Below are positions 46,031-60,061 of a stretch of 64,000 nt of DNA, in pieces. Under the pieces are notes generated by a model. That model searched no databases. It had not been told where the DNA came from and saw only the letters and a program-made list of their open reading frames with translations. Position 1 is the first letter of the stretch. Every line of letters starts with the position of its first letter. The position numbers and the translations under genes were made by a program. This stretch comes from Stutzerimonas nosocomialis (lineage in GTDB: Bacteria > Pseudomonadota > Gammaproteobacteria > Pseudomonadales > Pseudomonadaceae): contig NZ_QLAE01000024.1 in assembly GCF_005876855.1 (NCBI RefSeq), positions 1 through 64,000 on the forward strand. The letters are read 5' to 3'.

Positions 46031-48730
46031 TCAGGCCGGCTCCGGTTGGCGGGCCAGCATTCGCTTGATTTCCGGGACGCAAGAACCGCAACTGGTGCCG
46101 CAGCCCAACTCACGCTTGAGTCCGTCCAGGTCCATTCCGGCTGCGATGCCTCGGGCCACCGCCTGTTGGCTGACGTTCATGCAGTTGCACAGCGTTCGCT
46201 CCACGGCCGCGATCGTCTCACCCGGAGGGGCGCTGAGGGGCGCCAGGAGCCAGCGCCGGGTTTCGGCATCGACCTGGCCGCTTTGCCACAGACCCTTGAG
46301 CCAGTCGCGCGCCGCCGTTTCGCCCGCCAGGCGAAGGGAGACGATACGGCCAGCTTCGATACGCACCCGTTTGCCGATGGCGCGTCGGGGGTCGTCGTAG
46401 CTCAGTACCGCTCCTTCGTCGAGGCCGAGCAGCTGGTCCATGCGCTCCAGCTGCGCGGCATCAGGCGCCTGGCTGACAGCGGCATGGATGATCAGCGCCG
46501 GGCGATCGCGACCGGCCAGACTGAAGCTTGCGTAGTCGAATGCTTCGAACAGGGGACGCAGCGCGCTGAATCGGCTCTGCACGTCCTGCTCGACGAGGGC
46601 GAAGAACTGCCAGGGCAAGTCGACCCGTTCGACCTCGACCGCAGCGTGCTTGAGCTCGGGCTGTTTCGAAAGCGGGTCGTGCTCGGGCAGCGTCAGGACG
46701 TTGCAGCCCAGGCCCTTGAGAAAGCGGTCGCCCCAGTGCATCGGCAGGAAGGCCTGGCCAGCCTGCAGCCTGTCGTCCGCGGTCACTGGCAGGACGAGAC
46801 TGCCGCGGCGGCTGCGCAGCCGGACCAGCTGGCCTTCGAGCAGACGCCTATGCGTCATGTCGTCCGGATGCAGCCCGAGCAGTGCTTGCTCGACGTGGCC
46901 GAAGAGCTGCGCGGCGGTACCGGTTCGGCTCATGCCATGCCACTGGTCGCGCAGGCGCCCGGTATTGAGTATCAGGGGGTAGTGCGCCTCGCGCAGTTCC
47001 CGGGGCGGCTGGTACGGCTCGGCGATGAAGCGGGCGCGTCCAGTGGCGGTGGGAAATATCCGGTTCGTGTAGAGGCGTGGCGTGCCGGCTTCGCTGCCAG
47101 CCGGGAACGGCCACTGTTGCGGGCCGATCCGCTCGATCAGGGCGTAGCTCAGCCCGGAGAGATCCAGGTCCCGGCCGCGCGTCAGCGCCTTGTATTCGTC
47201 GAACAGCTGATCGGGCCGCTCGTAATCGAAGCGGCTCGGCTGCCCGGGCCGCAGGCGCTTTTCCAGACGCCGGGCAAAATCGCAGGTGATCGCCCAGTCG
47301 GCGCGCGCCTCGCCCGGTGCCGGTACCGCGCGGCGTACCCGGCTGACGCGGCGTTCGGAGTTAGTCACCGAGCCCTCTTTCTCGCCCCAGCTGGCCGCCG
47401 GCAGCAGCAGGTCGGCATGGCGGCATGTCTCGGTGGTGAAGAAGGCTTCCTGCACGACGACGAAGGGGCAGGTGGCGAGCGCCTCCTGTACGCCGCGCTG
47501 ATCCGGTAGCGACTGGGCCGGGTTGGTGCAGGCGATCCACAAGGCCTTGATCTTGCCGGCACGAACCTTTTCGAAGAGTTCGATGGCGGGTAGCCCGGGC
47601 GTTTCCGGAAGCTGCTCGACGCCCCAGTAGGCGGCCACTTCCTGGCGATGCTCGGGGTTGCCCGCGTCACGATGACCGGGCAGCAGATTGCTCAGGCTTC
47701 CGGTTTCCCGGCCGCCCATGGCGTTGGGCTGTCCGGTCAGGGAAAAAGGCCCGGCGCCTGGCCGTCCGATCTGGCCGGTGGCCAGGTGCAGGTTGATCAG
47801 CGCGCTGTTCTTCGCGCTGCCGGCGGTGGATTGGTTCAGCCCCATGCACCAGAGCGAGAGAAAGCTCGGGGCGTCGCCGATCAGGCGGGCACACCGCTGC
47901 AGCGCCTCGGCCGGGATGGCGCAGCGCTCGGCGACCACCGACGGGCTGTAGTCGCGCACCAGTGCGTCGAGGGCCTCGAACCCTTCGGTATGAGCGTCGA
48001 TGAAGTCCCGGTCGACCTGGCCCTCGCGCAGCAGGATGTGCATCAACCCGTGGAACAGCGCCACGTCGCTGCCGGGCTGGATCGCCAGGTGCAGGTCGGC
48101 CAGGTCGCAGGTGTCGGTGCGCCGTGGATCGACGACGATGATGCGCATCTGCGGGCGTCTCGCCTTGGCTTCCTCCAGCCGCCGGAAGAGCACCGGGTGG
48201 GCATAGGCCATGTTGCTGCCGACGATCAGCAGGCAGTCGCTCAGCTCGATGTCTTCGTAGGAGCAGGGCGGGGCGTCGGCGCCCAGGCTGCGCTTGTAGC
48301 CGACCACGGCCGAGGACATGCACAGGCGCGAGTTGCTGTCGATGTTGTTGGTTCCGACCAGGGCGCGTGCCAGCTTGTTGAAGGCGTAGTAGTCCTCGGT
48401 CAGCAGCTGGCCGGAAATGTAGAACGCGACGCTGTCCGGACCGTGCTCGCGGATGGCGTCGGCGAAGCGCTCGGCGGCGTGTTCCAGCGCGCTGTCCCAG
48501 TCGGTTCGGGCACGCGCCAGCGCTTTGCCCAGGCGCAGTTCCGGATGGAGGCCACGTGCGGCGATGTCACCGGTCAGGTGCAGGGTCGAGCCCTTGCTGC
48601 AGAGTTTGCCGAAATTGGCCGGATGGTCCGGGTCACCCGCGACATCGTGGATGCGCGTTCCGTCGTGCTCGATCAGAACGCCACAGCCGACGCCGCAATA
48701 GCAGCAGGTGGACGCGGTTGTCTGATGCAT
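46031..48730 (-). CDS. nasA: Assimilatory nitrate reductase, molybdenum-containing catalytic subunit
   Basis: An 899-residue cytoplasmic molybdopterin oxidoreductase reducing nitrate to nitrite. The N-terminal [4Fe-4S] site is CCYCGVGC plus CSKGS about 28 residues later. The molybdopterin domains contain SSAVVGYKRSLGADAPPCSYEDIE and GMSRTGTAAQLFGHV. At the C-terminus is a BFD-like [2Fe-2S] domain (CNCMNV and CGTSCGSC), as in Klebsiella NasA, which accepts electrons from the flavoprotein partner. No Tat signal is present. ATG 48730 is chosen for its AGGAG; two upstream in-frame starts (48757, 48847) lack one. It is 29 bases behind nasC. Confidence 0.93.
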   Translation of the reverse strand: MHQTTASTCCYCGVGCGVLIEHDGTRIHDVAGDPDHPANFGKLCSKGSTLHLTGDIAARGLHPELRLGKALARARTDWDSALEHAAERFADAIREHGPDSVAFYISGQLLTEDYYAFNKLARALVGTNNIDSNSRLCMSSAVVGYKRSLGADAPPCSYEDIELSDCLLIVGSNMAYAHPVLFRRLEEAKARRPQMRIIVVDPRRTDTCDLADLHLAIQPGSDVALFHGLMHILLREGQVDRDFIDAHTEGFEALDALVRDYSPSVVAERCAIPAEALQRCARLIGDAPSFLSLWCMGLNQSTAGSAKNSALINLHLATGQIGRPGAGPFSLTGQPNAMGGRETGSLSNLLPGHRDAGNPEHRQEVAAYWGVEQLPETPGLPAIELFEKVRAGKIKALWIACTNPAQSLPDQRGVQEALATCPFVVVQEAFFTTETCRHADLLLPAASWGEKEGSVTNSERRVSRVRRAVPAPGEARADWAITCDFARRLEKRLRPGQPSRFDYERPDQLFDEYKALTRGRDLDLSGLSYALIERIGPQQWPFPAGSEAGTPRLYTNRIFPTATGRARFIAEPYQPPRELREAHYPLILNTGRLRDQWHGMSRTGTAAQLFGHVEQALLGLHPDDMTHRRLLEGQLVRLRSRRGSLVLPVTADDRLQAGQAFLPMHWGDRFLKGLGCNVLTLPEHDPLSKQPELKHAAVEVERVDLPWQFFALVEQDVQSRFSALRPLFEAFDYASFSLAGRDRPALIIHAAVSQAPDAAQLERMDQLLGLDEGAVLSYDDPRRAIGKRVRIEAGRIVSLRLAGETAARDWLKGLWQSGQVDAETRRWLLAPLSAPPGETIAAVERTLCNCMNVSQQAVARGIAAGMDLDGLKRELGCGTSCGSCVPEIKRMLARQPEPA

Positions 48731-48759
48731 GGCGGCATCTCCTGGCAGGTCAGTCATGG

Positions 48760-50124
48760 CTAAAGAGGCGAAAGCGCGGTGCGTGACGCGCCATGGTTGC
48801 GCGGCGGCAGGATCGAGGGCTCGATCTCTTCGGTACGGGGAGGGCATGGGGTCTTGGTGCCGGCCGTCAGCGGCAGGGGCGCACTCGGTCCCTTGCCCAG
48901 GGTGGCGCCCTGGCCCAGCGCGGCGGCCCCGAACATGAGTTGATCACGGACCCCGGCAATCTCGCGGCGCTCGCGGATCTGACGCAGGTACCAGCCGCCG
49001 TCGGCGGTGTCGCCGTACAGGCAGGCGCCCACCAGTACGTCGTCCTTGATCACCAGCTTCTTGTAGATGCCGCCGACAGGGTCCTTCAGGGTGATGGTTT
49101 CGGTGCCTTCGGCGCCCAGGAAGTCGCCGGCCGAGAACAGATCGATGCCGGTGACCTTGAGCTTGGTCGAGGTCACCGAACCCGGGTAGCGCGAGAAGCC
49201 CAGCATCGCCAGGTGGTTGGCGCAGACCCTGGCCTGCTCGTACAGCGGCGCCACCAGCCCGTAAGCGGTGCCGCGGTGGCTGGCGCATTCGCCGACGGCA
49301 TAGATGCGCGGATCGTAGGTCTGCAGGGTATCGCTGACCAGAATCCCCCGGTTGCAGGGGATGCCCGCCTGTTCGGCGAGCTCGCAGTTGGGGCGGATGC
49401 CCGCGGCCATGACGACCAGGTCCGCCGGGACCTCTTCACCGTCGGTGAACCTGACCGCCCGGACGCGCCCTTCGCCGTCATCGACCAGCTCGGCGGTGTG
49501 CCTGGAGAGTAGGAACCTGAGCCCGCGCGCCTCAAGCGCATCCTGCAGCAGGCGGCCGGCGGTACGGTCGAGCTGGCGCTCCATCAGGGATTCGCCGATG
49601 TGCACCACGCTGACGTCCATGCCGCGCAGCTGCAACCCGTTGGCGGCCTCCAGGCCGAGCAGGCCGCCGCCGATGACCACGGCGTGACGGTGGGTGGCGG
49701 CGGTTTCCATCATCGTGCGGGTGTCGGCGATGTCGCGATAGCCGATCACGCCCCGCAGGGTATTGCCGGGCACCGGCAGCATGAAGGGCGTGGAGCCGGT
49801 GGCGATCAGCAACCGGTCGTATTCGGCCTCGCTGCCGTCCTGGGCGATGACGCGCCGCCCGGCGCGGTCGATCCGGACGACCTTGCTGTTCATGCGCAGC
49901 GCGATGCCGTGATCGCAGTACCACTGCAGGTCGTTGAGGACGATGTCTTCGAAATTCTGCTCCCCGGCCAGCACCGGCGACAGCAGGATGCGGTTGTAAT
50001 TGGGGTGCGGCTCGGCACCGAAGACGGTGATGTCGTACAGGTCCGGGGCGAGCTTGAGCAGCTCTTCCAGGGTCCGTACACCGGCCATGCCGTTGCCGAT
50101 CATCACCAGCTTGAGTTTCTTCAT
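48760..50124 (-). CDS. nasC: NAD(P)H-dependent FAD oxidoreductase, nitrate reductase electron-transfer subunit (NasC/NirB N-terminal-like)
   Basis: A 454-residue pyridine-nucleotide disulphide oxidoreductase-like flavoprotein. FAD motif VMIGNGMAGVRTLEE, the NAD motif VVIGGGLLGLEAANGL and ECASHRGTAYGLVAPLYEQARV match the first domain of NirB and Klebsiella NasC (457 residues). The BFD and siroheme domains of NirB are absent, so this is a reductase partner that feeds NADH electrons to NasA. The last 40 residues (proline-rich) match nothing recognised. Start 50124 (MKKLKLVMIGNG) is chosen because the longer frame reads through the regulatory leader. It leads nasC-nasA-cobA under a sigma-54 promoter and a terminator-containing leader. 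Confidence 0.88.
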   Translation of the reverse strand: MKKLKLVMIGNGMAGVRTLEELLKLAPDLYDITVFGAEPHPNYNRILLSPVLAGEQNFEDIVLNDLQWYCDHGIALRMNSKVVRIDRAGRRVIAQDGSEAEYDRLLIATGSTPFMLPVPGNTLRGVIGYRDIADTRTMMETAATHRHAVVIGGGLLGLEAANGLQLRGMDVSVVHIGESLMERQLDRTAGRLLQDALEARGLRFLLSRHTAELVDDGEGRVRAVRFTDGEEVPADLVVMAAGIRPNCELAEQAGIPCNRGILVSDTLQTYDPRIYAVGECASHRGTAYGLVAPLYEQARVCANHLAMLGFSRYPGSVTSTKLKVTGIDLFSAGDFLGAEGTETITLKDPVGGIYKKLVIKDDVLVGACLYGDTADGGWYLRQIRERREIAGVRDQLMFGAAALGQGATLGKGPSAPLPLTAGTKTPCPPRTEEIEPSILPPRNHGASRTALSPL

Positions 50125-50177: not shown

Positions 50178-50216
50178 AAAAAGGCGTCCCACTGGTTACC
50201 CAGTGAGGACGCCTTT
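50178..50216 (-). terminator. Leader terminator of nasC-nasA-cobA
   Basis: On the minus strand GGCGTCC pairs with GGACGCC and CACTGG with CCAGTG around GTAA, with one bulged T and a five-T run. It lies inside the 5' leader, about 55 bases before the nasC start, and its 5' arm overlaps antiterminator hairpin P2. It should stop transcription unless NasT binds. Confidence 0.85.
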
Positions 50217-50261
50217 GTCCGGTCCCGTTCTCGGGAAGCACGGCCCTCGTCGTTGAAGGCC
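50207..50261 (-). promoter_or_regulatory. ANTAR (NasT) dual-hairpin RNA target, nasC leader
   Basis: P1 (50242-50261) is a seven-pair stem with hexaloop AACGAC. P2 (50207-50220) is a GGAC/GUCC stem with hexaloop AAAGGC. Both loops have A at position 1 and G at position 4, the reported ANTAR recognition pattern. P2 uses the same bases as the 5' arm of the terminator, so the two structures exclude each other. The linker is 21 bases and contains its own small hairpin, longer than in the other two leaders. Confidence 0.82.
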
Positions 50262-50290
50262 TGGCTTTATGTCGATTGCGTCGAGAGCGA

Positions 50291-50306
50291 TGCAGGGGGT
50301 GTGCCA
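50291..50306 (-). promoter_or_regulatory. Sigma-54 promoter of nasC-nasA-cobA
   Basis: TGGCACACCCCCTGCA on the minus strand has the -24 GG and -12 GC separated by exactly ten bases and a full TGGCAC box. Transcription would begin near 50280, giving a leader of about 155 bases. Confidence 0.85.
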
Positions 50307-50370
50307 GTTGATGCTTTTCCGCTAAATCAGTGGGTTAGGCGGTTATCCTCGAAAGTAACTAAGTTCGCGA

Positions 50371-50407
50371 TGCACCTTGCTGAGGCGTCATGCGCAGCGA
50401 TGGTGCA
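50371..50407. promoter_or_regulatory. Two NtrC-like enhancer sites upstream of nasC
   Basis: TGCACC-TTGCT-GAGGCG (50371-50387) and TGCGCA-GCGAT-GGTGCA (50391-50407) each keep one perfect half of the NtrC consensus TGCACC-N5-GGTGCA, three to four bases apart, about 65-100 bases upstream of the sigma-54 promoter. The rest of the 50308-50604 gap shows no gene. Confidence 0.55.
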
Positions 50408-50604
50408 GCCTCGGCGGCCCTCGCATCGCCCGAGTCAGGGCGTTGACAGCCTTCGCCGAGTTTCAATAGAGTTGGGTCTTGCGCCGATTTAGTCAGCTAC
50501 TTGCGGGGCGCCAGGATCGAGAGATCCCGAAATACCGCTAAAGCGCTGGTTCGGTGTCGCCTCTCACCGCTGCCCAGCGGAACCCTCGAGGCGGGACCCC
50601 ATCG

Positions 50605-50907
50605 ATGAATGCAAAACTTCCTTCCTTCTGCCTGGCCCCGGCCGCACAGAACCCTTCCAGCCGCAAAATCCTGCTGATCGGCAGCCATCAGCCGGCGCTG
50701 CTCCGTTGCCTGGACGGATGGCCGAGACACCGCGGCAAGCCGCGCGCGTTGCTCATCCAGTTCAATGCCGATACCCGTTCGCTGGCCGACTACCCGACCG
50801 ATGCCTTTGATCTGGCCGTGGTGCAGGCGCCGGCCGCCGAGGCCCTCGATCACTGCATTCGCGAGCTGACCCGCGTGGCACGGCAGGGGCTGATCACCCG
50901 GCGCTGA
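50605..50907 (+). CDS. Small hypothetical protein, possibly a truncated methyltransferase-like domain
   Basis: A 100-residue open frame of normal codon use. The sequence has KILLIGSH near residue 22 and FDLAVVQAPAAEALDHCIRELTRVARQGLITRR at the end, which looks like the first half of a Rossmann-type SAM methyltransferase fold that stops early. No catalytic motif can be assigned. The ATG at 50605 is preceded by a weak ribosome-binding site (GGCGGGA). It lies divergently from nasC and shares the intergenic region with the NtrC-like sites, and it converges with the phosphatase-kinase gene with stops two bases apart. Confidence 0.6.
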   Translation: MNAKLPSFCLAPAAQNPSSRKILLIGSHQPALLRCLDGWPRHRGKPRALLIQFNADTRSLADYPTDAFDLAVVQAPAAEALDHCIRELTRVARQGLITRR

Positions 50908-50909
50908 TC

Positions 50910-52583
50910 TCAGCCGCGGCCGATCAGCCAGATCAACCCTGCGAGGTTGAGGAACAACGAGGCGAGGGCGATCGCGCGCCAGGTTTTCAGCGGTTCGCGT
51001 TCGAGCAGCGGGTGGGTGCCGTCGGAGGAGATGCTTTGTTCTCCCTGTTCGAAGCCCAGCAGCCACTCCTCGGCGGTTTCGAATCGCTGTGCCGGATCGG
51101 CCGCCAGGCTTCGCAACAGCAGCCTGTCCAGCCAGTCGGGCAGGTCCGGGCGGTAGCGCGACGGCGGCACGGCCGTGCTGAAGCGCGGGCGCTGGAAGGC
51201 TTCGACCTCCCCGTAGGGGTAATGCCCGGTGAGCAGGTAGTAGAGGGTCACTCCGGCGGCATAGAGGTCCTGCTGCGCGCTTGGCGGCTCGCCCCTGAAG
51301 GCCTCCGGCGCGATGAAGCTCGGCGTGCCGGGCAGGCTGTTGGGCTCGTCACGCGACAGGCCGGGGCAGTACGCCAGGCCGAAGTCGAGCAGGCGCAGCT
51401 CGCCGTCGTCCCCCAGGTGCAGGTTCTCCGGTTTGACGTCGCGGTGCAGGATGTTGCGCCGGTGCAGCATGCCGAGGGCGCGGATTATCCGTGGCGCGGT
51501 GTCCAGCCACTGCGGCAGGGGCATCGGACCCTGCTGCCGGAACAGTTGCGCCAGGCTTTGCCCCGCGTATTCGCGCTGCACGTAGTACAGATGCTGGCGC
51601 TGCGCGAGGCTGTGCAATTCCGGAAAGCAGCGCCCGGCCACACGGCGCAGGAACCATTCCTCCTGCAGCAGCGCAGGGCCGGCCGATGGATCGTCGGCGC
51701 GGCTCGGGGGCAGCGTTTTCAGCAGCCACGGACGCGTTTGTGCGTCGGTGACACGATAGATCAGCGACTGCCGCGACTCGGCCAGCAGCCCCTCGACCGT
51801 CCAGCCTTCGAACCCCTGTCCGGCGCGCAGCTTCGGCGGCAGGGGCCATTGCTCCAGCTGGGCGAGGTTGTCGGCCAGGCCCGCCTCGGGCAGCGCCTGT
51901 ACCCGTACCAGGACGGCGCTGGCGTTATCGCCGCTGCCGGCCAGGTGCGCGGCCTTCACCAGGGTGCTGGCGGCGCGGGAAAGGTCGGTCTCGGTCTGCA
52001 GCACTTCGGCGATGTCGCGTTCGGGCAGCACCGCCCAGACGCCGTCGCTGAGGATCACGAAGCAGTCGCCTTCGCGCAGCGCGCCTTCGAGAAAATCCAC
52101 CACCAGGTGCTGGTCCAGCCCCAGGGCCCGCTTGAGCACATGCTGCATGCCCGGTTGCTGCCAGACGTGGTCTTCGCTGAGGCGTTCGAGCGTGGCGTCG
52201 GCCCAGAGATACGCCCGGCAGTCGCCCACATGGGCCAGGGTGAAGCGGGTGCCGCGCAGCACCAGGGCGGTGAGCGTGGTCAGCAGCGGTTGGCCATTGC
52301 CGTTGGCCTGCAGCCAGCGGTTCTGCGCCGTGAGCAGCCGCTCGAGCGCATGGGTGACGGCCCAGGTTTCGGGTGTCGAGTAATAGTCGAGCGCCAGCGC
52401 CTGCAAGGTGGCGCGGGCGGCCAGGGCACCGTCGGCGCAATGGCTGACGCCGTCGGCCAGCGCCAATAGGAAGCCCTTGCTCAGGGCGAGCGAGGGTGCC
52501 GGCGTGACGACGCGGATGGCGTCCTGGTTTTCGTTGCGCGGGCCGGTGGCGCTGGCTTCGCCGAAGGTCAGTTGCAGGGGCAT
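50910..52583 (-). CDS. Bifunctional PP2C phosphatase / Ser-Thr protein kinase, membrane-anchored
   Basis: A 557-residue fusion. Residues 1-235 are a PP2C phosphatase with metal motifs RNENQDAI, ADGVSHC, HVGDCRAY, LSDGVW and GSGDNASAV. Residues about 250-520 are a Hanks-type kinase with the catalytic Lys in WLLKTLPP, HRDVKPEN, LLDFGLA and IAPEAF; the glycine loop is poor (LLAESRQS). A single C-terminal membrane helix (LASLFLNLAGLIWLIG) puts both domains in the cytoplasm. It lies 51 bases behind the nitrate transporter and is probably in its operon. P. aeruginosa has a homologue in its nas region (PA1782). Targets are unknown. Confidence 0.9.
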   Translation of the reverse strand: MPLQLTFGEASATGPRNENQDAIRVVTPAPSLALSKGFLLALADGVSHCADGALAARATLQALALDYYSTPETWAVTHALERLLTAQNRWLQANGNGQPLLTTLTALVLRGTRFTLAHVGDCRAYLWADATLERLSEDHVWQQPGMQHVLKRALGLDQHLVVDFLEGALREGDCFVILSDGVWAVLPERDIAEVLQTETDLSRAASTLVKAAHLAGSGDNASAVLVRVQALPEAGLADNLAQLEQWPLPPKLRAGQGFEGWTVEGLLAESRQSLIYRVTDAQTRPWLLKTLPPSRADDPSAGPALLQEEWFLRRVAGRCFPELHSLAQRQHLYYVQREYAGQSLAQLFRQQGPMPLPQWLDTAPRIIRALGMLHRRNILHRDVKPENLHLGDDGELRLLDFGLAYCPGLSRDEPNSLPGTPSFIAPEAFRGEPPSAQQDLYAAGVTLYYLLTGHYPYGEVEAFQRPRFSTAVPPSRYRPDLPDWLDRLLLRSLAADPAQRFETAEEWLLGFEQGEQSISSDGTHPLLEREPLKTWRAIALASLFLNLAGLIWLIGRG

Positions 52584-52634
52584 GGGGCGTTCCGCAGAGG
52601 GCGGCAGCCACCGGTCGCGGCGGCTGCGTCAGGT

Positions 52635-53846
52635 TCAGACCCGGGCGGCGGTCACCGCGGCCGAACCCCAGGTGGTCCTCCAGCGCTGCTTGACGCTGTA
52701 CAGGCCGATCCAGGCTAGCACGCCGAGGCTGGCGAACAGCCAGAGGCCGAGCTGATAGTCGCCGGTGGCCTGCTTGACGGCGCCGAGGCCGGCGGTCAGC
52801 AGGAAGCCACCGATGCCGCCGGCCATCCCCACCAGGCCGGTCATCACGCCGATTTCCCGGTGGAAGCGCTGCGGTACCAGCTGGAACACCGCACCGTTGC
52901 CGGCGCCCAGGCTGAGCATCGCGACCACGAACAGCGCCAGGGCGGCGGTCGAGCTGGACAGGTTGATGCCGACCGCGGCGATGCACAGGGCCGCCACGGT
53001 GTACATCACCAGCAGCGAGCGGATGCCTCCGATGCGGTCGGCCAGGGCGCCGCCGAGCGGGCGCATCATGCTGCCGGCGAAGACGCAGGCCGCGGTGTAG
53101 TAGCCGGCCTTGACCGGATCGAAGCCGTACTGGTCGTAGAAGTAGCCGGGCAGGGTGCTGGCCAGACCGAGGAAGCCGCCGAAGGTCACGCTGTAGAAGA
53201 ACATGAACCACCAGCTGTCCGGGTCGCCCAGTGCCTTCATGTAGTCGGCCATCGACTTGGGTTTCGGGCGGTTGGGCGCGTTGCGTGCCATCCCGGCGAA
53301 CAGCACCAGGACCAGCACCAGCGGCACCAGTGCCAGGCCGAACACGTTGTTCCAGCCGAACAGGGCGGCGAGCCCCGGGGCGAAGAGCGCGGCCAGCACC
53401 GTGCCCGAGTTGCCCGCGCCGGCGATGCCCATGGCCTTGCCCTGATGCTCGGCCGGGTACCACTGGGAGGCCAGCGGCAGCGCGACGGCGAAGGAGGCGC
53501 CGGCGAAACCGAGGAACAGGCCGAGCAGCAGCGCCTGCTCGTAGCTGCGAATGCCGAACGACCAGGCCAGCGCCAGCGCGACGATGACCATCACCTGGCC
53601 GAACAATCCCGCCGTCTTGGGCGAGGTGCGGTCGGCCAGCATGCCGAGCGCGAGGCGCAGGACGGCACCGGAGAGAATCGGGGTCGCCACCATGAAGGCG
53701 CGCTGCTGAGTGGTCAGGCCGAGGTCGGCGGCGATCTGCACCCCGAGCGGCCCGAGCACGTACCAGACCATGAAGCTCAGGTCGAAGTAGAGAAAGGCGA
53801 CGAACAGGGTAGGCGCATGGCCCGCTTTCCAGAAACTCGTATTCAT
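52635..53846 (-). CDS. nasA/narK-like: Nitrate/nitrite MFS transporter (NNP family)
   Basis: A 403-residue inner-membrane transporter with twelve predicted helices. The two nitrate-nitrite-porter signatures are present: GIAGAGNSGTVLAALFAP in TM5 and LSLGAGNGAVFQLVP in TM11, along with the MFS loop GMLADRTSPK. By context it imports nitrate for assimilation, in parallel with the ABC transporter. GAGGTG precedes the start at 53846. Its own sigma-54 promoter and a NasT-type leader lie upstream. The downstream phosphatase-kinase gene is probably co-transcribed. Confidence 0.9.
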   Translation of the reverse strand: MNTSFWKAGHAPTLFVAFLYFDLSFMVWYVLGPLGVQIAADLGLTTQQRAFMVATPILSGAVLRLALGMLADRTSPKTAGLFGQVMVIVALALAWSFGIRSYEQALLLGLFLGFAGASFAVALPLASQWYPAEHQGKAMGIAGAGNSGTVLAALFAPGLAALFGWNNVFGLALVPLVLVLVLFAGMARNAPNRPKPKSMADYMKALGDPDSWWFMFFYSVTFGGFLGLASTLPGYFYDQYGFDPVKAGYYTAACVFAGSMMRPLGGALADRIGGIRSLLVMYTVAALCIAAVGINLSSSTAALALFVVAMLSLGAGNGAVFQLVPQRFHREIGVMTGLVGMAGGIGGFLLTAGLGAVKQATGDYQLGLWLFASLGVLAWIGLYSVKQRWRTTWGSAAVTAARV

Positions 53847-53930
53847 CTTGCACACCTCACCGTCATGGGCCGACCTGCGCTGTGATGGGGCGCTGGCCGG
53901 ATGTACCGCTTGCTGCCCAGGCGTAGAACG

Positions 53931-53982
53931 AAAAAGGCGCCGCGCACTTGCCGGAAATTCCGGCAAGCGACGCGACGCCTTT
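53931..53982 (-). terminator. Leader terminator of the nitrate MFS transporter gene
   Basis: A long GC-rich hairpin on the minus strand whose outer arms pair AAAGGCG with CGCCTTT and whose inner arms pair CTTGCCGG with CCGGCAAG, followed by five T. It is about 85 bases upstream of the start codon and shares its 5' arm with hairpin P2. Confidence 0.85.
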
Positions 53983-54016
53983 GTCTGCATAGGGTGCAAC
54001 CCTCGTTGGTTGCACC
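53972..54016 (-). promoter_or_regulatory. ANTAR (NasT) dual-hairpin RNA target, nitrate MFS transporter leader
   Basis: P1 (53993-54016) is a perfect nine-pair stem with hexaloop AACGAG. P2 (53972-53988) is a stem with one bulged A and hexaloop AAAGGC, identical to the P2 loop in the nasC leader. A at position 1 and G at position 4 are kept in both. The linker is four bases. P2 and the terminator are mutually exclusive. Confidence 0.83.
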
Positions 54017-54024
54017 TTGGCCGG

Positions 54025-54040
54025 AGCAAGATCCCTGCCA
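54025..54040 (-). promoter_or_regulatory. Sigma-54 promoter of the nitrate MFS transporter operon
   Basis: TGGCAGGGATCTTGCT on the minus strand has GG and GC ten bases apart and a full TTGC -12 box. The start would fall near 54014, at the base of hairpin P1. The 307-base gap between 53846 and 54154 holds only this promoter and its leader. Confidence 0.85.
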
Positions 54041-54153
54041 GATGCGCAGGTTGCCTTCAGCTGGCACTTGCGGCCAATGGTGGAGGGGCAGCTCCAGGCG
54101 AATCGTGCACGAAAGCGGGGCGCATCCTGCGGCTCATGCCTCCCGATGGCGCA

Positions 54154-54597
54154 TCAGTCGAGGCGGTTGACCCGGGGGAAGTGGCTGGAGAAGTCATCCG
54201 GCATCGGTGCGACCCGTGCCGCCGAATAGTCGTAGAAGACGAACCCGGACTTGGCCATGGCGATCAGGCGCTGGTCGGCCGGGCGGGTGACGCGAAACGT
54301 GATGTCGCCGCCGTAGCGGTTGAAATCCATGACGCCGACCTCGAACAGCAGGGCGTCGCGGGCATGGGCCTCTGCCCGGTACATGGTCGCCAGGTCGGTG
54401 ACGATGATGCCGACGCCCCGGCCGTTGGTCTCGCGGATGCCATAGGCGAAGAGAAACCGGGCGCGGGCTTCGGAAATCATCGAGATCATCGAGTCGTTGC
54501 CCAGGTGATTGGCGCCGTTGATGTCGGTGACCCGTACCGTCATCTGGGTGGAAAAGTAGTACTGGTCGTCGGGGAACTGCAGTTGTAGACGGGCCAT
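54154..54597 (-). CDS. Hotdog-fold thioesterase family protein
   Basis: A 147-residue acyl-CoA thioesterase-like protein. TVRVTDINGANHLGNDSMISMISEARARFL is typical of the 4-hydroxybenzoyl-CoA thioesterase family, although the usual catalytic Asp-x-x-Gly/His arrangement is modified (DINGANHLGN). FEVGVMDFNRYGGDITFRV forms the later beta strand. Substrate unknown. It lies 120 bases downstream of nrtD on the same strand and may be read with the nrt operon; no link to nitrate metabolism is evident. Confidence 0.78.
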   Translation of the reverse strand: MARLQLQFPDDQYYFSTQMTVRVTDINGANHLGNDSMISMISEARARFLFAYGIRETNGRGVGIIVTDLATMYRAEAHARDALLFEVGVMDFNRYGGDITFRVTRPADQRLIAMAKSGFVFYDYSAARVAPMPDDFSSHFPRVNRLD

Positions 54598-54717
54598 GGT
54601 GCGCTCATGCCGGAATCGGGGTGGCCATTGTAGGGCCCTGCCGGACGATCGTTGTCCATTCGGCGCGCAAATGGTGCCGGGCGCCGACCAGCCGCTGCGA
54701 GGCTGGCCGGCGGGCAA

Positions 54718-55509
54718 TCAGGCGGCGGGTCGTTGCTGGCGCTGGTAGAGGAATTCCAGCACGGCGGCGCGGTACTCGTGGTAGCGCCCGTCATGGGCCA
54801 GCGCCATGCGATCGCGCGGGCGATCCAGTTCCACGTCGAGGATCTCGCCGATGGTCGCCGCCGGGCCGTTGGTCATCATCACGATGCGGTCGGACAGCAG
54901 CACGGCTTCGTCGACGTCGTGGGTGACCATCACCACCGTGCTCTGCGTCTGGCCGACGATGCGCAGCAGTTCGTCCTGCAGGTGGGCGCGGGTCAGGGCG
55001 TCGAGCGCGCCGAAGGGCTCGTCCATCAGCAGCACCTTGGGTTCCATCGCCAGCGCCCGGGCGATACCCACGCGCTGCTTCATCCCGCCGGATATCTCGC
55101 TGGGATGCTTGTGGATGGCGTGGCCGAGGCCGACCATGTTCAGCGCAGCCTCCGTGCGTGCCTTGAGTTGGGCCTTGTTTTCGCGCTTGCCGAAAACCTT
55201 CTCGACGGCCAGATGGACGTTGCCATAGCAGGTCATCCAGGGCAGCAGGCTGTGGTTCTGGAACACCACCGCGCGCTCTGGGCCCGGGCCGTCGATTTCG
55301 CGGCCGTTGCAGATCAGGCCGCCTTCGCTGGCTTCGAGCAGGCCGGCAATGAGGTTGAGCACGGTGGACTTGCCGCAACCGGAGTGGCCGATCAGCGACA
55401 CGAATTCGCCGCGGCGGATGGCGAGGTTGATGTTGGTCAGCGCCTGGAAGCGGCCCTTCTTGGTATCGAAATGCTTGCTGACCTGGGTCAGTTCGACGAA
55501 TTTTTCCAT
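54718..55509 (-). CDS. nrtD: Nitrate ABC transporter ATP-binding protein
   Basis: A 263-residue ABC ATPase of the nitrate/sulfonate/taurine type. Walker A is [12 protein letters not shown], the signature [17 protein letters not shown], Walker [17 protein letters not shown], and the switch [14 protein letters not shown]. It lacks the extra NrtA-like domain of cyanobacterial NrtC. It is third in nrtA-nrtB-nrtD, 52 bases after nrtB, with AGGAG before its start. Confidence 0.92.
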
Positions 55510-55561
55510 CTCGGTTCTCCTGCCTGCGGCGCCTCGGACGCCGCAGGAATGGTTGGCGACG

Positions 55562-56413
55562 TTAGCTGGCGTAGTCGAAGCGTCGGGCGAGCAGCAGCAG
55601 GCTCTGTTCGAGCAGCAGGCCGATCAGCCCGACGACGATGATGGCGATGAGGATGTGTTCGACGTTGAGGTTGTTCCATTCGTCCCACACCCAGAAGCCG
55701 AGGCCCGTGCCGCCTGTGAGCATTTCGGCGGCGACGATCACCAGCCAGGCGACGCCGATGGCCAGGCGGATGCCGGTCATCAGGTGCGGCAGTACCGACG
55801 GGAAGAGGATCCGGGTGAGCACCTTCCACTCGCTCAGCTTGAGCACCTTCGCCACGTTCAGGTAGTCCTGCGGGACGCTGGCCACCCCGGCGGCGGTGTT
55901 GAGGATGATCGGCCAGATCGAACTGATGAAGATCACCCAGATCGACGCGGGGCCAGCGGCCTCGAAGACCAGCAGGCCGATCGGCAGCCAGGCCAGGGGC
56001 GAGACCGGCCGCAGCAGGCTGATGATCGGCGAGAGCATGCCGGACAGGAAGGCGAAACGGCCGATGGCGAAGCCCAGCGGTATGCCGATCAGCGCCGCGA
56101 GGCCGAAGCCCACGCCGACCCGGGCCAGCGAATGGAGGATGTTCCAGCCGATGCCCATGTCGTTCGGTCCGTTGTCATAGAACGGATCGGAGAACAGCGC
56201 CACCGCCGCCGTCCAGGTTGGCCCGGGGCCCGGCAGGCCGTCGCTGCGCGCGGCGATCAGCGCCCAGACGCCGAGAAACAGCAGGATGCCCAGCAGCGGT
56301 GGCAGCACGGCCCTGACGGCCGTCGCGCCGCGCTGGCCGATGAGGCTCGTGAGGCGGTTCTTGCTGCGCGGCTCGGCTTTTTCCAGCAGGGGTAATTTCA
56401 CGGGTGCGTTCAT
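55562..56413 (-). CDS. nrtB: Nitrate ABC transporter permease
   Basis: A 283-residue inner-membrane permease (SsuC/NrtB family) with about six helices. The cytoplasmic EAA-type loop reads [31 protein letters not shown], the contact to the ATPase, and [15 protein letters not shown] near the C-terminus is common in nitrate permeases. GGAGGG precedes the start. It follows nrtA by 15 bases. Confidence 0.92.
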
Positions 56414-56428
56414 CGTATGGCCCTCCGG

Positions 56429-57712
56429 TCAGGCCTTGACGGCGAAGGAAGCCGCATAGGCGGCTGGGTTGGAACCATCCCAGACGACGCCGTCGAGCAG
56501 GGTGCTCGAGCGCATCGGGCTGCTCGGCACGGCCAGCTTGAGCTGGCTGGCGGCTTCGCCGTAGAGGGCGGTCTGGTTGATCGAGCGGGCGATGGCCTGG
56601 TAGTCGGGGTCTTCCTTGATCAGGCCCCAGCGGCGGAACTGGGTCAGGAACCACATGCCGTCCGACAGGTAGGGGTAGTTCACTTCGCCGCCGCGGCAGA
56701 AGGCCATGGCGTGGTCGTCCTTCCAGGTGTTGCCCAGGCCGTCGTCGTACTGGCTGAGGAAGCGCGGTTCGATGACGTCCACCGGCGCATTGACGTAGGC
56801 CTTGCCGGAGATCAGCTTGGCCGTGCTGCGCTTGTTCTCTTCGCTGGCTTCGATGAACTGGCTGGCGTCGAGCAGCGACATGACCAGCGCGCGGGCCGCG
56901 TTGGGGTATTTTTCGATGAAGGCGCGGGTGGTGCCGAGTACCTTCTCGGGATGATCGGGCCAGATCTGCTGGGTGGTCACGGCGGTGAAGCCGATCTTGT
57001 CGTAGATCGCCCGGGCGCCCCAGGGCTCGCCGACACAGAAGCCGTCCATGTTGCCGACACGCATGTTGGCGACCATCTGCGGCGGCGGCACGGTGATGGT
57101 CTTGACGTCGCTCATCGGGTTGATCCCATGGCTGCCGAGCCAGTAGTAGAGCCACATGGCATGGGTGCTGGTGGGGAAGGTCTGGGCGAAGGTCATCGGC
57201 TTGCCGCCTTCCTTGACCTTGGCCGCCAGTTGCTCGCCCGTGGTCACCCCGGCTTCGCGCAGCTGCCTGGAAAGGGTGATCGCCTGGCCGTTCTGGTTCA
57301 GGCCCATCAGGTTGGCCATCTCGGTGCGCGGGCCGCCGACGCCCAGCTGCAGGCCGTAGAGCATGCCGTAGAGGACGTGGGCGGCGTCCAGCTCGCCGTT
57401 GATCAGCTTGTCGCGCACGCCCGCCCAGGAGGCTTCCTTGCTCGGCGTGATGGTCAGGCCGTACTTGCCGGCGAAGCCCTGGGTCGCGGCGACGATCAGC
57501 GAGGCGCAGTCGGTCAGCGGGATGAAGCCGACGGTCAGCGCGGCCTTTTCAGGTGCGTCGGAGCCTGCCGCCCAGGCGGCGCTGCGCAGGCTGGCCGGTG
57601 CGGACAGGCCCAGGGCGGCGACGCCTGCGAGAGTCCCGGCGGTGGCGATGGAATACTTGAGGAAATTGCGACGACTGCTATCAACCGGTTTCGACGGGTC
57701 ACGATCGGTCAT
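56429..57712 (-). CDS. nrtA: Nitrate ABC transporter substrate-binding protein, Tat-exported
   Basis: A 427-residue periplasmic nitrate-binding protein of the NrtA/CmpA family. The N-terminus carries a twin-arginine signal (SRRNFLK, residues 13-19, then a hydrophobic stretch), so it is exported folded. LTVGFIPLTDCASLIVAA, TFPTSTHAMWLYYWLGSHGINP and FCVGEPWGARAI are typical ligand-binding segments. AAGGAA precedes the start at 57712. It is strikingly similar to the nasS product encoded next door, differing by the export signal. It heads nrtABD under sigma-54 and NasT-type control. Confidence 0.93.
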   Translation of the reverse strand: MTDRDPSKPVDSSRRNFLKYSIATAGTLAGVAALGLSAPASLRSAAWAAGSDAPEKAALTVGFIPLTDCASLIVAATQGFAGKYGLTITPSKEASWAGVRDKLINGELDAAHVLYGMLYGLQLGVGGPRTEMANLMGLNQNGQAITLSRQLREAGVTTGEQLAAKVKEGGKPMTFAQTFPTSTHAMWLYYWLGSHGINPMSDVKTITVPPPQMVANMRVGNMDGFCVGEPWGARAIYDKIGFTAVTTQQIWPDHPEKVLGTTRAFIEKYPNAARALVMSLLDASQFIEASEENKRSTAKLISGKAYVNAPVDVIEPRFLSQYDDGLGNTWKDDHAMAFCRGGEVNYPYLSDGMWFLTQFRRWGLIKEDPDYQAIARSINQTALYGEAASQLKLAVPSSPMRSSTLLDGVVWDGSNPAAYAASFAVKA

Positions 57713-57735
57713 GGTGAATTCCTTGTGCGAAGCAT

Positions 57736-57793
57736 AAAAAAACGGCGTACGCCAAGCGACCCGATGGGGGTGGGTCACCTGACGGACGCCGTT
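57736..57793 (-). terminator. Leader terminator of nrtABD
   Basis: On the minus strand AACGGCGT pairs with ACGCCGTT, an inner GACCC/GGGTC hairpin closes the loop, and a seven-T run follows. The hairpin ends about 24 bases before the nrtA start and shares its 5' arm with P2. Confidence 0.83.
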
Positions 57794-57826
57794 GTCCGTA
57801 ATCCGCGGCCACCGCCGTTGGTGTGC
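57782..57826 (-). promoter_or_regulatory. ANTAR (NasT) dual-hairpin RNA target, nrtA leader
   Basis: P1 (57808-57826) has a CACC/GGUG stem extended past a bulged A, with hexaloop AACGGC. P2 (57782-57799) is a perfect six-pair stem with the same hexaloop AACGGC. Loop positions 1 (A) and 4 (G) are kept. The linker is about eight bases. P2 competes with the terminator for AACGGCGT. Confidence 0.83.
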
Positions 57827-57850: not shown

Positions 57851-57866
57851 TGCAAGCGGCTTGCCA
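57851..57866 (-). promoter_or_regulatory. Sigma-54 promoter of nrtABD
   Basis: TGGCAAGCCGCTTGCA on the minus strand has GG and GC ten bases apart. The start is expected near 57839, giving a leader of about 125 bases. Confidence 0.83.
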
Positions 57867-58101: not shown

Positions 58102-58680
58102 TCACTGACCGAGCAGGTCGTTCATGGCGATGATCTGTTCGGCGACCTGGATCAGTTTCTGCTGACGGCTCATGGCCTGCCGGCGCATCAGGGTGTAGGC
58201 CTCTTCTTCGTTGCAGTGCTTCATCTTCATGAGCATGCCCTTGGCCAGCTCGATGCGCTTGCGCTCGGCCAGTTGCTGGTCGCGGGCGTGCAGCTGGGCG
58301 CGGATCGCCTGGTCGCTTTCGAAGCGCGCCATCGCCACGTCCAGGATGGGCTTCAAGCGCTGCGCCTGGATGCCTTCGACGATATAGGCGCTGACGCCGG
58401 CGCGGATCGCCTGGCGCATGGCGTCCGGGTTGTCGTCGTCGGTGAACATGACGATCGGCCGCGGCTGGTCACGGCTGACCACCACGACCTGCTCCATGAC
58501 GTCGCGGCCGGGCGAGTCGGTGTCGATCAGGATGACGTCCGGTCGGGTGGCTTCGACCCGTTCGGGCAGGTCGATGGTCAGGCCGGATTCATCGATCACC
58601 TCGAAGCCGGCCTCGATCAGCGCGCTTCTCAGGCGGCCGACCTTGCGGGGGGTGTCGTCGATCAGGAGGACGCGAAGCAT
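58102..58680 (-). CDS. nasT: Nitrate-responsive antiterminator NasT (ANTAR domain)
   Basis: A 192-residue RNA-binding response-regulator-like protein. The receiver-like domain starts MLRVLLIDDTPRKVG, and contains VILIDTDSPGRDV. The C-terminal ANTAR domain (about residues 130-190) has the conserved LAERKRIELAKGMLMKMKHCNEEEAYTLMRRQAM. NasT binds dual hexaloop hairpins in nas leaders and prevents termination; without nitrate it is held by NasS. It is 15 bases behind nasS. Three matching RNA targets occur in this window. Confidence 0.94.
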   Translation of the reverse strand: MLRVLLIDDTPRKVGRLRSALIEAGFEVIDESGLTIDLPERVEATRPDVILIDTDSPGRDVMEQVVVVSRDQPRPIVMFTDDDNPDAMRQAIRAGVSAYIVEGIQAQRLKPILDVAMARFESDQAIRAQLHARDQQLAERKRIELAKGMLMKMKHCNEEEAYTLMRRQAMSRQQKLIQVAEQIIAMNDLLGQ

Positions 58681-58695: not shown

Positions 58696-59913
58696 TCAGA
58701 GGGCAGGGGTTGGGGTTGGGTCGGTGAGCGCGTGCAGCGCGAAGCTGCGGGCGTATGCACCGGGGTCGGAGCCGTCCCAGACGCTGCCGTCCATCAGGGT
58801 CGAGCGGCGCATGACCGAGGCGGGCACCTCGATGCCCAGTGCCGTGGCGGCCTCGCGGTAGAGCGCGCTCTGCTGGATGCGGCTGGCGACGGCCAGGTAG
58901 TCGGGGTCGTCGCGCAGCAGGCCCCAGCGGCGGAGTTGGGTCATGAACCAGAGGCCGTCGGAGTGATAGGGCATATTCACCTGGCCGTCGGCGAAGAAGC
59001 GAAGCGCGTGGGCGTCGCGCCAGGCGTTGCCCAGGCCGTCTTCGTAGTTGCCGAGAAAGCGCGCCTCGACGGCTGCCAGCGGCGCGCCGACGTAGTCGTG
59101 GCCACTGATCAGCTGCGCCGTGCTGCGGCGGTTTTCCTCGCTGGCGGCGATGAAGCGGCTCGCTTCGAGAATCGCCATGACCAGCGCCCGGGCGGCGTTC
59201 GGGTACTGCTCGACGAACGCGCGGGTGCAGCCGAGGACCTTCTCCGGATGGTCCGGCCAGATCGACTGGGTGGTCGCCAGGGTGAAGCCGGTGCCTTCGG
59301 CGATGGCCTGCGCGCCCCAGGGCTCGCCGGCGCAGAACCCGTCGATCCGGCCGGCGCGCAGATGGTCGACCATCTGCGCAGGCGGGACCACGACCGTGCG
59401 GACGTCCTGCAGCGGATGGATGCCATGGGCGGCAAGCCAGTAGTAGAGCCACAGCGCATGGGTGCCGGTGGGGAACGTCTGCGCCAGGGTCAGCGGCTCG
59501 CCGCTGGCGACACGGGCGCGCAGCGTCGCGGCATCGACGACTCCGGATCGCCTGAGTTCGGTCGAGAGGTTGAGACTCTGGCCGTTCTGCGCCAGCCCCA
59601 TCAGTACCGCCATGTCCGTCGGTGCCCGCCCGCCGATCCCCAGGTGGGTCGCGTAGATCAGGCCGTACAGCGCGTGGGCCGCGTCCAGCTGCCCGTCGAC
59701 GAGCTTGTCGCGCAGGCCGGACCAGGAGGATTGCCGTTGCAGGTTGAGGGTCAGGCCGTAGGGACGGGCGAAGTCCTGGGTGGCTGCGACGATGACCGAC
59801 GCAGCATCGGTCAGCGCCATGAAGCCCAGGTTGACGACGGGTTTTTCCGGCGCATCGCTGCCGGCTACCCAGGCCAGCGCTTCACTCCGGGTATTGTCTT
59901 GCGAGTCGGTCAT
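58696..59913 (-). CDS. nasS: Nitrate sensor NasS (cytoplasmic NrtA-like protein)
   Basis: A 405-residue protein homologous to the nitrate-binding protein NrtA along its whole length (for example NLGFMALTDAASVIVAA, TFPTGTHALWLYYWLAAHGIHP and GRIDGFCAGEPWGAQAI), but starting without any signal peptide. In the NasS-NasT system the apo form binds and inhibits NasT, and nitrate releases NasT. The start is ATG 59913. It is first in nasS-nasT, under its own sigma-54 promoter and without a hairpin leader, so the sensor pair is subject to nitrogen but not nitrate control. Confidence 0.93.
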   Translation of the reverse strand: MTDSQDNTRSEALAWVAGSDAPEKPVVNLGFMALTDAASVIVAATQDFARPYGLTLNLQRQSSWSGLRDKLVDGQLDAAHALYGLIYATHLGIGGRAPTDMAVLMGLAQNGQSLNLSTELRRSGVVDAATLRARVASGEPLTLAQTFPTGTHALWLYYWLAAHGIHPLQDVRTVVVPPAQMVDHLRAGRIDGFCAGEPWGAQAIAEGTGFTLATTQSIWPDHPEKVLGCTRAFVEQYPNAARALVMAILEASRFIAASEENRRSTAQLISGHDYVGAPLAAVEARFLGNYEDGLGNAWRDAHALRFFADGQVNMPYHSDGLWFMTQLRRWGLLRDDPDYLAVASRIQQSALYREAATALGIEVPASVMRRSTLMDGSVWDGSDPGAYARSFALHALTDPTPTPAL

Positions 59914-59962
59914 GCTGTCGGATCTGCCTTTTCGATTGCCTGCCACGGTGTTGCCAGCTGCC

Positions 59963-59978
59963 AGCAAGGGACGTGCCA
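59963..59978 (-). promoter_or_regulatory. Sigma-54 promoter of nasS-nasT
   Basis: TGGCACGTCCCTTGCT on the minus strand is a full-consensus sigma-54 promoter (TGGCACG-N4-TTGCT). Transcription would start near 59950, leaving a leader of under 40 bases with no hairpin or terminator. Confidence 0.87.
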
Positions 59979-60061
59979 GCACCTCAGGCTACAGGGTTGC
60001 GCCGCCGCGTTGTAGGTGGCTTTGCTAAGCTCGGTCGATTATCAAACACAGGGGATCAATC

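Follow-up and report, generated by a model that had tools for sequence, protein, structure and literature searches.

Described ANTAR targets and the Stutzerimonas nosocomialis nas locus

In the described targets of the ANTAR-domain proteins EutV (eutP), NasR (nasF) and AmiR (amiE), two hairpins carry hexaloops with A at position 1, G at position 4 and a closing C:G pair, and the second hairpin (P2) overlaps a terminator (PMC3369931, PMC7496416, PMC8934654). Among NasS-NasT systems, NasT of Paracoccus has been shown to bind the leader of nasA, and nitrate causes NasS and NasT to dissociate (PMC3795266), and binding of Bradyrhizobium NasT to the nosR leader has been reported (PMC6759348). A nasT mutant of Pseudomonas stutzeri A1501 was unable to grow on nitrate (cited as unpublished in PMC8443478), and Pseudomonas putida without nasT did not grow on nitrate (PMC7261876). 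In this study, we analyzed a 64-kb stretch of the Stutzerimonas nosocomialis genome (64,000 nucleotides, hereafter the window), in which the leaders of nasC-nasA-cobA, of an operon for a NarK-family nitrate major facilitator superfamily (MFS) transporter (hereafter the narK leader) and of nrtABD are, with a probability of roughly 0.9, NasT-dependent transcription antiterminators of the ANTAR type behind predicted sigma54 promoters.

The nirBD-PA1779-cobA leader of Pseudomonas aeruginosa, which we take to be the RNA catalogued in Rfam as P11, reportedly belongs to an operon controlled by NasT antitermination, as the title of Romeo 2012 has it. The nasC leader resembles this leader in that cobA is the last gene of the operon and in that a sigma54-type site, a first hairpin (P1), a middle hairpin, P2 and a terminator are present, but the first genes here are nasC-nasA instead of nirBD, and the middle hairpin has the tetraloop AGAA where that leader has a hexaloop. 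The P. aeruginosa operon, named nirBD-nasC-cobA in another source, is described as being under RpoN, NtrC and NasT (PMC8092218, citing Romeo 2012). With the EutV, NasR and AmiR targets the window leaders share the two A1/G4 hexaloops, the closing C:G pair and the overlap of P2 with the terminator, whereas the sigma54-type promoters at narrow spacing and a 21-nucleotide (nt) linker with an extra hairpin in the nasC leader are differences. The sensor also differs, being the binding protein NasS here and a histidine kinase (EutW) or a NIT domain inside NasR there. NasT antitermination, predicted here, is common to the NasS-NasT systems of Paracoccus, Azotobacter and Bradyrhizobium, but in the window one module occurs in three leaders of one cluster, and the target genes are others.

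The mechanism is mostly known: two of the three leaders fall into families that Rfam already contains, and antitermination by NasT has been published for the P. aeruginosa operon that corresponds to nasC-nasA-cobA. What we add is a proposed unification of P11 and narK RNA as sigma54-ANTAR leaders, an apparent exchange of the sensor with NasR, and a predicted autoregulation of NasT.

Three leaders with a dual-hairpin module

Both strands of the window were scanned for a module of two A..G.. hexaloop hairpins (stems of at least 4 and at least 3 base pairs (bp), respectively) lying 3-45 nt apart, where the second had to share sequence with the 5' arm of an intrinsic terminator. The three leaders and six hexaloops named in the initial annotation were all found where it had placed them, on the minus strand. 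The features below come from the module scan and folding unless another source is given.

50242..50261, minus strand: nasC leader P1, 7 bp, hexaloop AACGAC (50254-50249)
50223..50236, minus strand: nasC leader middle hairpin between P1 and P2, tetraloop AGAA (folding and comparison with relatives)
50207..50220, minus strand: nasC leader P2, stem GGAC/GTCC, hexaloop AAAGGC (50216-50211)
50178..50216, minus strand: nasC leader intrinsic terminator, whose 5' arm contains the P2 loop and the P2 3' arm
53993..54016, minus strand: narK leader P1, 9 bp, hexaloop AACGAG (54007-54002)
53974..53985, minus strand: narK leader P2, weak, 3 bp (GAC/GTC), hexaloop AAAGGC (53982-53977)
53931..53982, minus strand: narK leader intrinsic terminator overlapping P2
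57810..57823, minus strand: nrtA leader P1, 4 bp, hexaloop AACGGC (57819-57814)
57782..57799, minus strand: nrtA leader P2, 6 bp, hexaloop AACGGC (57793-57788)
57736..57793, minus strand: nrtA leader intrinsic terminator overlapping P2

As annotated, all six loops have A at position 1 and G at position 4, and each is closed by the C:G pair used as a criterion for ANTAR target hexaloops (PMC7496416). In each leader P2 and the terminator 5' arm overlap, as had also been claimed, and the two structures are mutually exclusive. The full-length leaders adopted the terminator fold in every case (z -5.7, -9.1 and -4.6), and RNAs ending after P2 folded as P1 and P2 for nasC and nrtA. The outermost 2 bp of the narK P1 may lie upstream of the predicted transcript start.

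The middle hairpin of the nasC leader has an A..G.. hexaloop in 38 of 44 nasC leaders and the tetraloop AGAA in the window. It was considered as a third protein-binding hexaloop and is unlikely to be one: its closing pair is G:C in the sequences inspected, not the C:G found at target hexaloops in NasR SELEX (systematic evolution of ligands by exponential enrichment; PMC7496416), and the window loop is a tetraloop.

Two of the leaders matched Rfam families above the gathering cut-off, and the nrtA leader matched none even at an expectation value (E) of 1 or less.

50183..50318, minus strand: nasC leader, full model of RF00625 (P11), 115.7 bits (gathering cut-off 70)
53972..54039, minus strand: narK leader, RF03032 (narK RNA), 46.4 bits (gathering cut-off 43.2)

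Rfam types RF03032 as cis-regulatory and RF00625 as a gene (small RNA, sRNA), not as cis-regulatory; P11 is thus typed as a gene though it is a leader here. In the RF03032 structure only P1 is paired, and base pairs are given neither for P2 nor for the terminator. Both models, RF00625 as well as RF03032, open with the sigma54-type site. The terms narK RNA, narK motif and RF03032 were not mentioned in the literature searched.

Specificity of the module

The module scan gave three matches in the window, which are the nasC, narK and nrtA leaders, compared with two in total in 20 dinucleotide-shuffled windows (0.1 per window). Without the terminator condition, hexaloop hairpin pairs were not in excess (21 in the window, 23.45 per shuffle), and single A..G.. 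hexaloop hairpins were not enriched over shuffles in the window; because of this lack of enrichment, hexaloop hairpins alone are no evidence. The P2 core pattern GACAANGGCGTC, selected post hoc after the leaders had been inspected, matched three times in the window against 0.05 expected.

A covariance-model search, proposed in the initial annotation as a check, ranked the three leaders first. For this model (R2), 16 leaders from relatives, all of nasC or narK, were used, and neither window nor nrtA sequences were included. In the window, nasC (E 1.5e-11), narK (1.1e-6) and nrtA (5.7e-5) were the best three of the 13 matches listed, the next having an E of 0.017. In the whole genome the same three were the best of six listed (1.0e-9, 8.0e-5 and 0.0043; next 0.19), these being rough E-values from a search that scored 150 candidates from a loose first pass. 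A second model (R1), which includes the window leaders, listed 12 matches in the genome under the same first pass, namely, the three leaders and nine weaker matches. A wider regulon was examined on these nine and rejected, as none showed the dual hairpin and terminator in the strict scan. A loose sigma54 pattern (TGGC-N9-GC), common in any case, lay upstream of two of them (L161 and L165), and of two loci with open reading frames (ORFs) listed, one match was inside an ORF. Because 150 candidates were scored and the E-values are rough, the regulon is local at search sensitivity only; at the sensitivity of the searches used, the predicted regulon is complete with its three leaders and a single ANTAR protein.

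Conservation and covariation in relatives

We compared loci around nasT homologues in relatives, keeping 80 of at least 503 candidates. The module scan of these loci gave 144 rows, some of which are alternative readings of one leader; 66 lay before narK, 51 before nasC, 15 before nasS-type genes, 8 before nrtA-type genes, 1 before cobA and 3 before no query gene. For alignment, 43 nasC and 69 narK upstream regions were taken from the 80 loci and 29 nrtA regions from other genomes, and the window leaders were added (44, 70 and 31 in total). Loop conservation in orthologous leaders, the lack of which the initial annotation had named as one of two outcomes that would refute its claim, was found in 44 of 44 nasC, 70 of 70 narK and 31 of 31 nrtA leaders in a motif-guided search, with P1 and P2 present in all 145. 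A terminator was likewise recognized in 145 of 145. Because P2 was required to be preceded by GAC or AAC, these counts express presence and not freedom to vary.

Nine loci formed a separate nrtA-like set (L032, L034, L035, L036, L055, L058, L059, L067 and L103). They carry a second nitrate-type binding-protein gene near nasT, about 32% identical to NrtA and NasS, and in eight of the nine the same kind of leader precedes it, with both hairpins; a terminator was recognized in eight of the nine. The nrtA-like gene did not turn up among the window ORFs, no search having been aimed at finding it.

Covariation was assessed in 77 distinct leaders (28 nasC, 25 narK, 19 nrtA and 5 nrtA-like). The inner four P1 pairs were paired in 98.7%, compared with 69.8% in shuffles, and pair 3 occurred as six pair types, all standard; the outer pairs were looser (pair 5, 55/77). 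The closing C:G pair was found in 77 of 77 for P1, where it was not imposed, and in 77 of 77 for P2, where the search condition already included the leading C. In a diverse selection of 27 leaders, P1 and P2 together gave a covariation score of 0.519, with 0.166 in 500 shuffles, none of which was as high, for a structure that was derived from the same sequences and is favored by this; structures slid along the alignment scored at most 0.127. Changes on both sides were seen in six of seven P1 pairs and two of four P2 pairs. In the 77 leaders, position 5 of the P2 loop and its terminator partner varied together (G-C 62, A-T 14 and G-T 1), as would be expected of letters that take part in both folds.

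The initial annotation held that stems are not conserved while loops are. This is correct for P1, whose stems vary, but not for P2: its stem near the loop is almost invariant, partly because the search imposed it, yet the core GAC/GTC is also identical in the three window leaders and in the consensus lines of both Rfam families. The variation among three leaders, which had been offered as covariation-type evidence, is not in itself covariation; the compensatory P1 changes in relatives supply such evidence.

Predicted sigma54 promoters

The strict sigma54 pattern (TGGCWN6YTGCW) occurred at four sites in the window, one each before nasC, narK, nrtA and nasS.

50291..50306, minus strand: sigma54-type (-24/-12) promoter of nasC-nasA-cobA, TGGCACACCCCCTGCA (strict pattern)
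54025..54040, minus strand: sigma54-type promoter of the nitrate MFS (narK-like) operon, TGGCAGGGATCTTGCT (strict pattern)
57851..57866, minus strand: sigma54-type promoter of nrtABD, TGGCAAGCCGCTTGCA (strict pattern)
59963..59978, minus strand: sigma54-type promoter of nasS-nasT, TGGCACGTCCCTTGCT (strict pattern)

The count by itself lacks significance, with 1.54 sites expected and four reached by 8 of 100 shuffles. The loose form, with a background of about 1 per kb, lay within 420 nt upstream in 44/44 nasC, 70/70 narK, 31/31 nrtA, 9/9 nrtA-like and 80/80 nasS regions, and the distance between the -12 GC and the P1 loop was 30-39 nt for nasC, 18-31 nt for narK (22 nt in 49 of 70) and 30-33 nt for nrtA. 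The sigma54 assignment therefore relies on placement, the narrow P1 spacing and the 145/145 upstream occurrence, not on the count. The sites lie inside the P11 match and, all but one base, inside the narK RNA match, so the 5' block conserved in each family probably represents promoter DNA that precedes the predicted start. These predictions can be set beside reports that loss of ntrC in P. stutzeri A1501 lowers nasS, nasT, nasA and nasB (PMC8443478) and that sigma54 promoters were predicted for nasT-type genes in a 2025 survey (PMC12316311).

Co-occurrence with ANTAR proteins

In the genome, no ANTAR protein other than NasT was found. NasT was detected in 187 of 248 genomes of the family and an ANTAR protein of any kind in 202; narK RNA was detected in 190 and P11 in 183. 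A leader of either family and an ANTAR protein occurred together in 199 genomes, an ANTAR protein only in 3, a leader only in 1 (a genome 71% complete, in which no ANTAR protein was found) and neither in 45. When NasT alone was counted, the corresponding numbers were 186 with both, 1 with NasT only, 14 with a leader only and 47 with neither.

Another ANTAR protein was present in 13 of the 14 genomes with a leader but without NasT (G009, G064, G070, G094, G101, G156, G173, G202, G203, G225, G232, G236 and G238). These ORFs were 424-454 amino acids in 12 of the 13 and 298 in one; one genome had a second, of 225. In all three of the genomes checked, the architecture was NIT plus ANTAR, that is, NasR-like. 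R1 gave a match at E of 1 or less in 13 of 13, and since only four had a best E below 0.001, the weak matches are expected by chance. Seven NasT-less loci were inspected: the strict module and a sigma54-type site were present in three and absent from four, and NasR lay within the nas cluster in three.

Evaluation of the antitermination model and its alternatives

Several observations weigh against NasT antitermination at all three leaders. In the minimum-energy fold, the window's narK leader RNA ending after P2 forms P1 and a different small hairpin instead of the 3-bp P2; this P2 is where the case is weakest. The linker between P1 and P2 is 7 nt in narK and 10 nt in nrtA, but 21 nt in the window nasC leader and 16-29 nt across the nasC set, which is beyond the tolerance of EutV, whose antitermination was abolished by an additional 20 nt between the hairpins (PMC8934654), unless the middle hairpin shortens it. 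Subtracting that hairpin leaves 7 nt in the window; it can form in 43 of 44 nasC leaders, leaving 3-13 nt unpaired (16 nt in the leader without it), which suggests a folded-out spacer. An unbroken P1 stem is just 3 bp in 11 of 41 nasC leaders. When hairpins were chosen without demanding loop letters, both were found in 44 of 44 nasC leaders, but the middle hairpin was taken as P1 in 23; for narK, P1 was found in 63 and P2 in 58 of the 64 assessable leaders (of 70), the window P2 being among the misses; for nrtA, P1 was found in 26 and P2 in 31 of 31. In the five nrtA misses a rival hairpin scored higher, the AACGGC hairpin still being in the sequence, and four of the five assessable nrtA-like leaders (of nine) had both hairpins. 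This search was less complete than the motif-guided one and agreed with it in the large majority. In addition, the 248 genomes are related, their counts are not independent and the Fisher value overstates the evidence. Finally, hairpins were predicted for Bradyrhizobium narK, whose expression nonetheless increased in the absence of NasT (PMC6759348); hence the presence of a hairpin pair does not prove activation by NasT.

The most serious alternative concerns the narK leader, which may have decayed in the window, leaving only the nasC and nrtA leaders as functional ANTAR targets. Its competing fold and 3-bp P2 fit this idea, as do its RF03032 score close to the cut-off, with only three same-genus matches listed lower (34.8, 33.8 and 33.6), and its P1 loop AACGAG in place of the usual AACGGC, a loop seen in 1 of 70 narK leaders, the window's own. 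Set against these are a 9-bp P1 with A1, G4 and the closing C:G, an intact P2 core GAC/GTC, terminator and sigma54-type site, and the prospect that protein binding could stabilize the weak P2; on balance, we consider decay unlikely, though it deserves some weight. That the leaders are plain attenuators stopping transcripts constitutively, or that the nasC leader is a stand-alone sRNA, with incidental hexaloop hairpins, agrees with the Rfam typing of P11 as a gene and with terminator-less hexaloop pairs being as common as in shuffles. This is very improbable given the 3 full modules where 0.1 were expected, the conserved loops and P1 closing pairs with compensatory P1 changes, the way leaders track ANTAR proteins over the 248 genomes, and the title of the study on P. 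aeruginosa nirBD-PA1779-cobA, which reports antitermination. An RNA-binding regulator other than NasT could be suspected from the other ANTAR proteins of the NasT-less genomes, NasR-like in the three checked; with NasT the only ANTAR protein found in this genome, such a regulator is scarcely credible here. The local NasT antitermination regulon proposed in the initial annotation is the best explanation and is supported by what the sequences contain, namely, the module and its conservation, compensatory changes in relatives, genome-wide specificity, an adjacent nasS-nasT pair with the single ANTAR protein found, and co-occurrence.

Leaders before nasS

Across the 80 relatives' loci, R1 gave 172 matches at E of 0.1 or less, all on the nasT-sense strand, and in 47 loci a match lay just upstream of nasS. 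These 47 nasS leaders contained a sigma54-type site (47/47), the P2 core (47/47), the P1 core (46/47) and a terminator stem of at least 9 bp (42/47). They were found in 47 of 60 loci not titled Stutzerimonas and in none of 20 Stutzerimonas-titled loci. In the window, the region before nasS (59913-59978) has the sigma54-type promoter, but no dual-hairpin leader was found by the module scan and upstream inspection. The nasS leaders predict autoregulation of NasT, of which no report was found in the passages of the literature searched, subscription papers lying largely outside that literature.

Genes of the locus

The minus-strand gene set in the window comprises nasS-nasT, nrtABD, a thioesterase gene, the NarK-family transporter with a phosphatase-kinase fusion, and nasC-nasA-cobA.

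48760..50124, minus strand: nasC, NirB-like FAD/NAD(P)H reductase subunit, first gene of its operon (family searches)
46031..48847, minus strand: nasA, assimilatory molybdopterin nitrate reductase (family similarity and context; under NCBIfam cut-offs)
45245..45982, minus strand: cobA, uroporphyrinogen methyltransferase, tetrapyrrole methylase family (PF00590)
52635..53846, minus strand: NarK-family nitrate/nitrite MFS transporter (TIGR00886, above cut-off)
50910..52583, minus strand: PP2C phosphatase-protein kinase fusion, 3' of the narK-like transporter (family search)
56429..57712, minus strand: nrtA, nitrate ATP-binding cassette (ABC) transporter binding protein (name from context and relatives)
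55562..56413, minus strand: nrtB, nitrate ABC permease (TIGR01183, above cut-off)
54718..55509, minus strand: nrtD, nitrate ABC ATPase (TIGR01184, above cut-off)
58102..58680, minus strand: nasT, receiver and ANTAR protein (PF03861 and PF00072)
58696..59982, minus strand: nasS, NMT1-like nitrate-binding sensor, listed ORF (PF13379)

The nasS-nasT pair, a receiver-ANTAR protein adjoining an NMT1-type binding protein, thus lies in the same cluster, as annotated, and the true start of nasS is likely the ATG at 59913. A 100-amino-acid ORF divergent from nasC (50605-50907, plus strand) had no Pfam or NCBIfam match at E of 0.001 or less, and a sigma70-like site lies at 50443-50472. An NrtA orthologue (at least 77% identity) was found, among the matches listed, only in this genome of 55 same-genus genomes and is present elsewhere in the family; nrtABD and its leader (54718-57712 region) may have been acquired horizontally.

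Proposed mechanism and implications

Under nitrogen limitation, NtrC and sigma54 RNA polymerase would initiate about 12 nt past the -12 GC, which places the predicted starts near 50280, 54014 and 57840. In the absence of nitrate, NasT would be held by NasS, the nascent RNA would form the terminator, and transcription would end before the gene. With nitrate or nitrite present, NasT freed by NasS would bind the P1 hexaloop and then P2; because P2 uses the 5' arm of the terminator, the terminator could not form, and the polymerase would read through into the three operons, each of which would then act as an AND gate for low nitrogen and nitrate. In this scheme, the release of NasT from NasS by nitrate, its RNA binding and the activation by NtrC and sigma54 are modelled on published homologues, and successive binding to P1 and P2 would follow the EutV model.

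We consider it somewhat more probable than its opposite that P11 and narK RNA are one portable module readable by two nitrate sensors, NasS-NasT and NasR, which have apparently been exchanged in Pseudomonadaceae while the leaders were retained, and that the module, also lying before nasS-nasT in many Pseudomonas, would provide positive feedback there, Stutzerimonas-titled records excepted. Antitermination by NasT at these leaders would assign a mechanism to the Rfam families P11 and narK RNA. The middle-hairpin insert of the nasC leader and the nasS leaders are naturally occurring variants on which the linker rule and NasT autoregulation can be tested directly.

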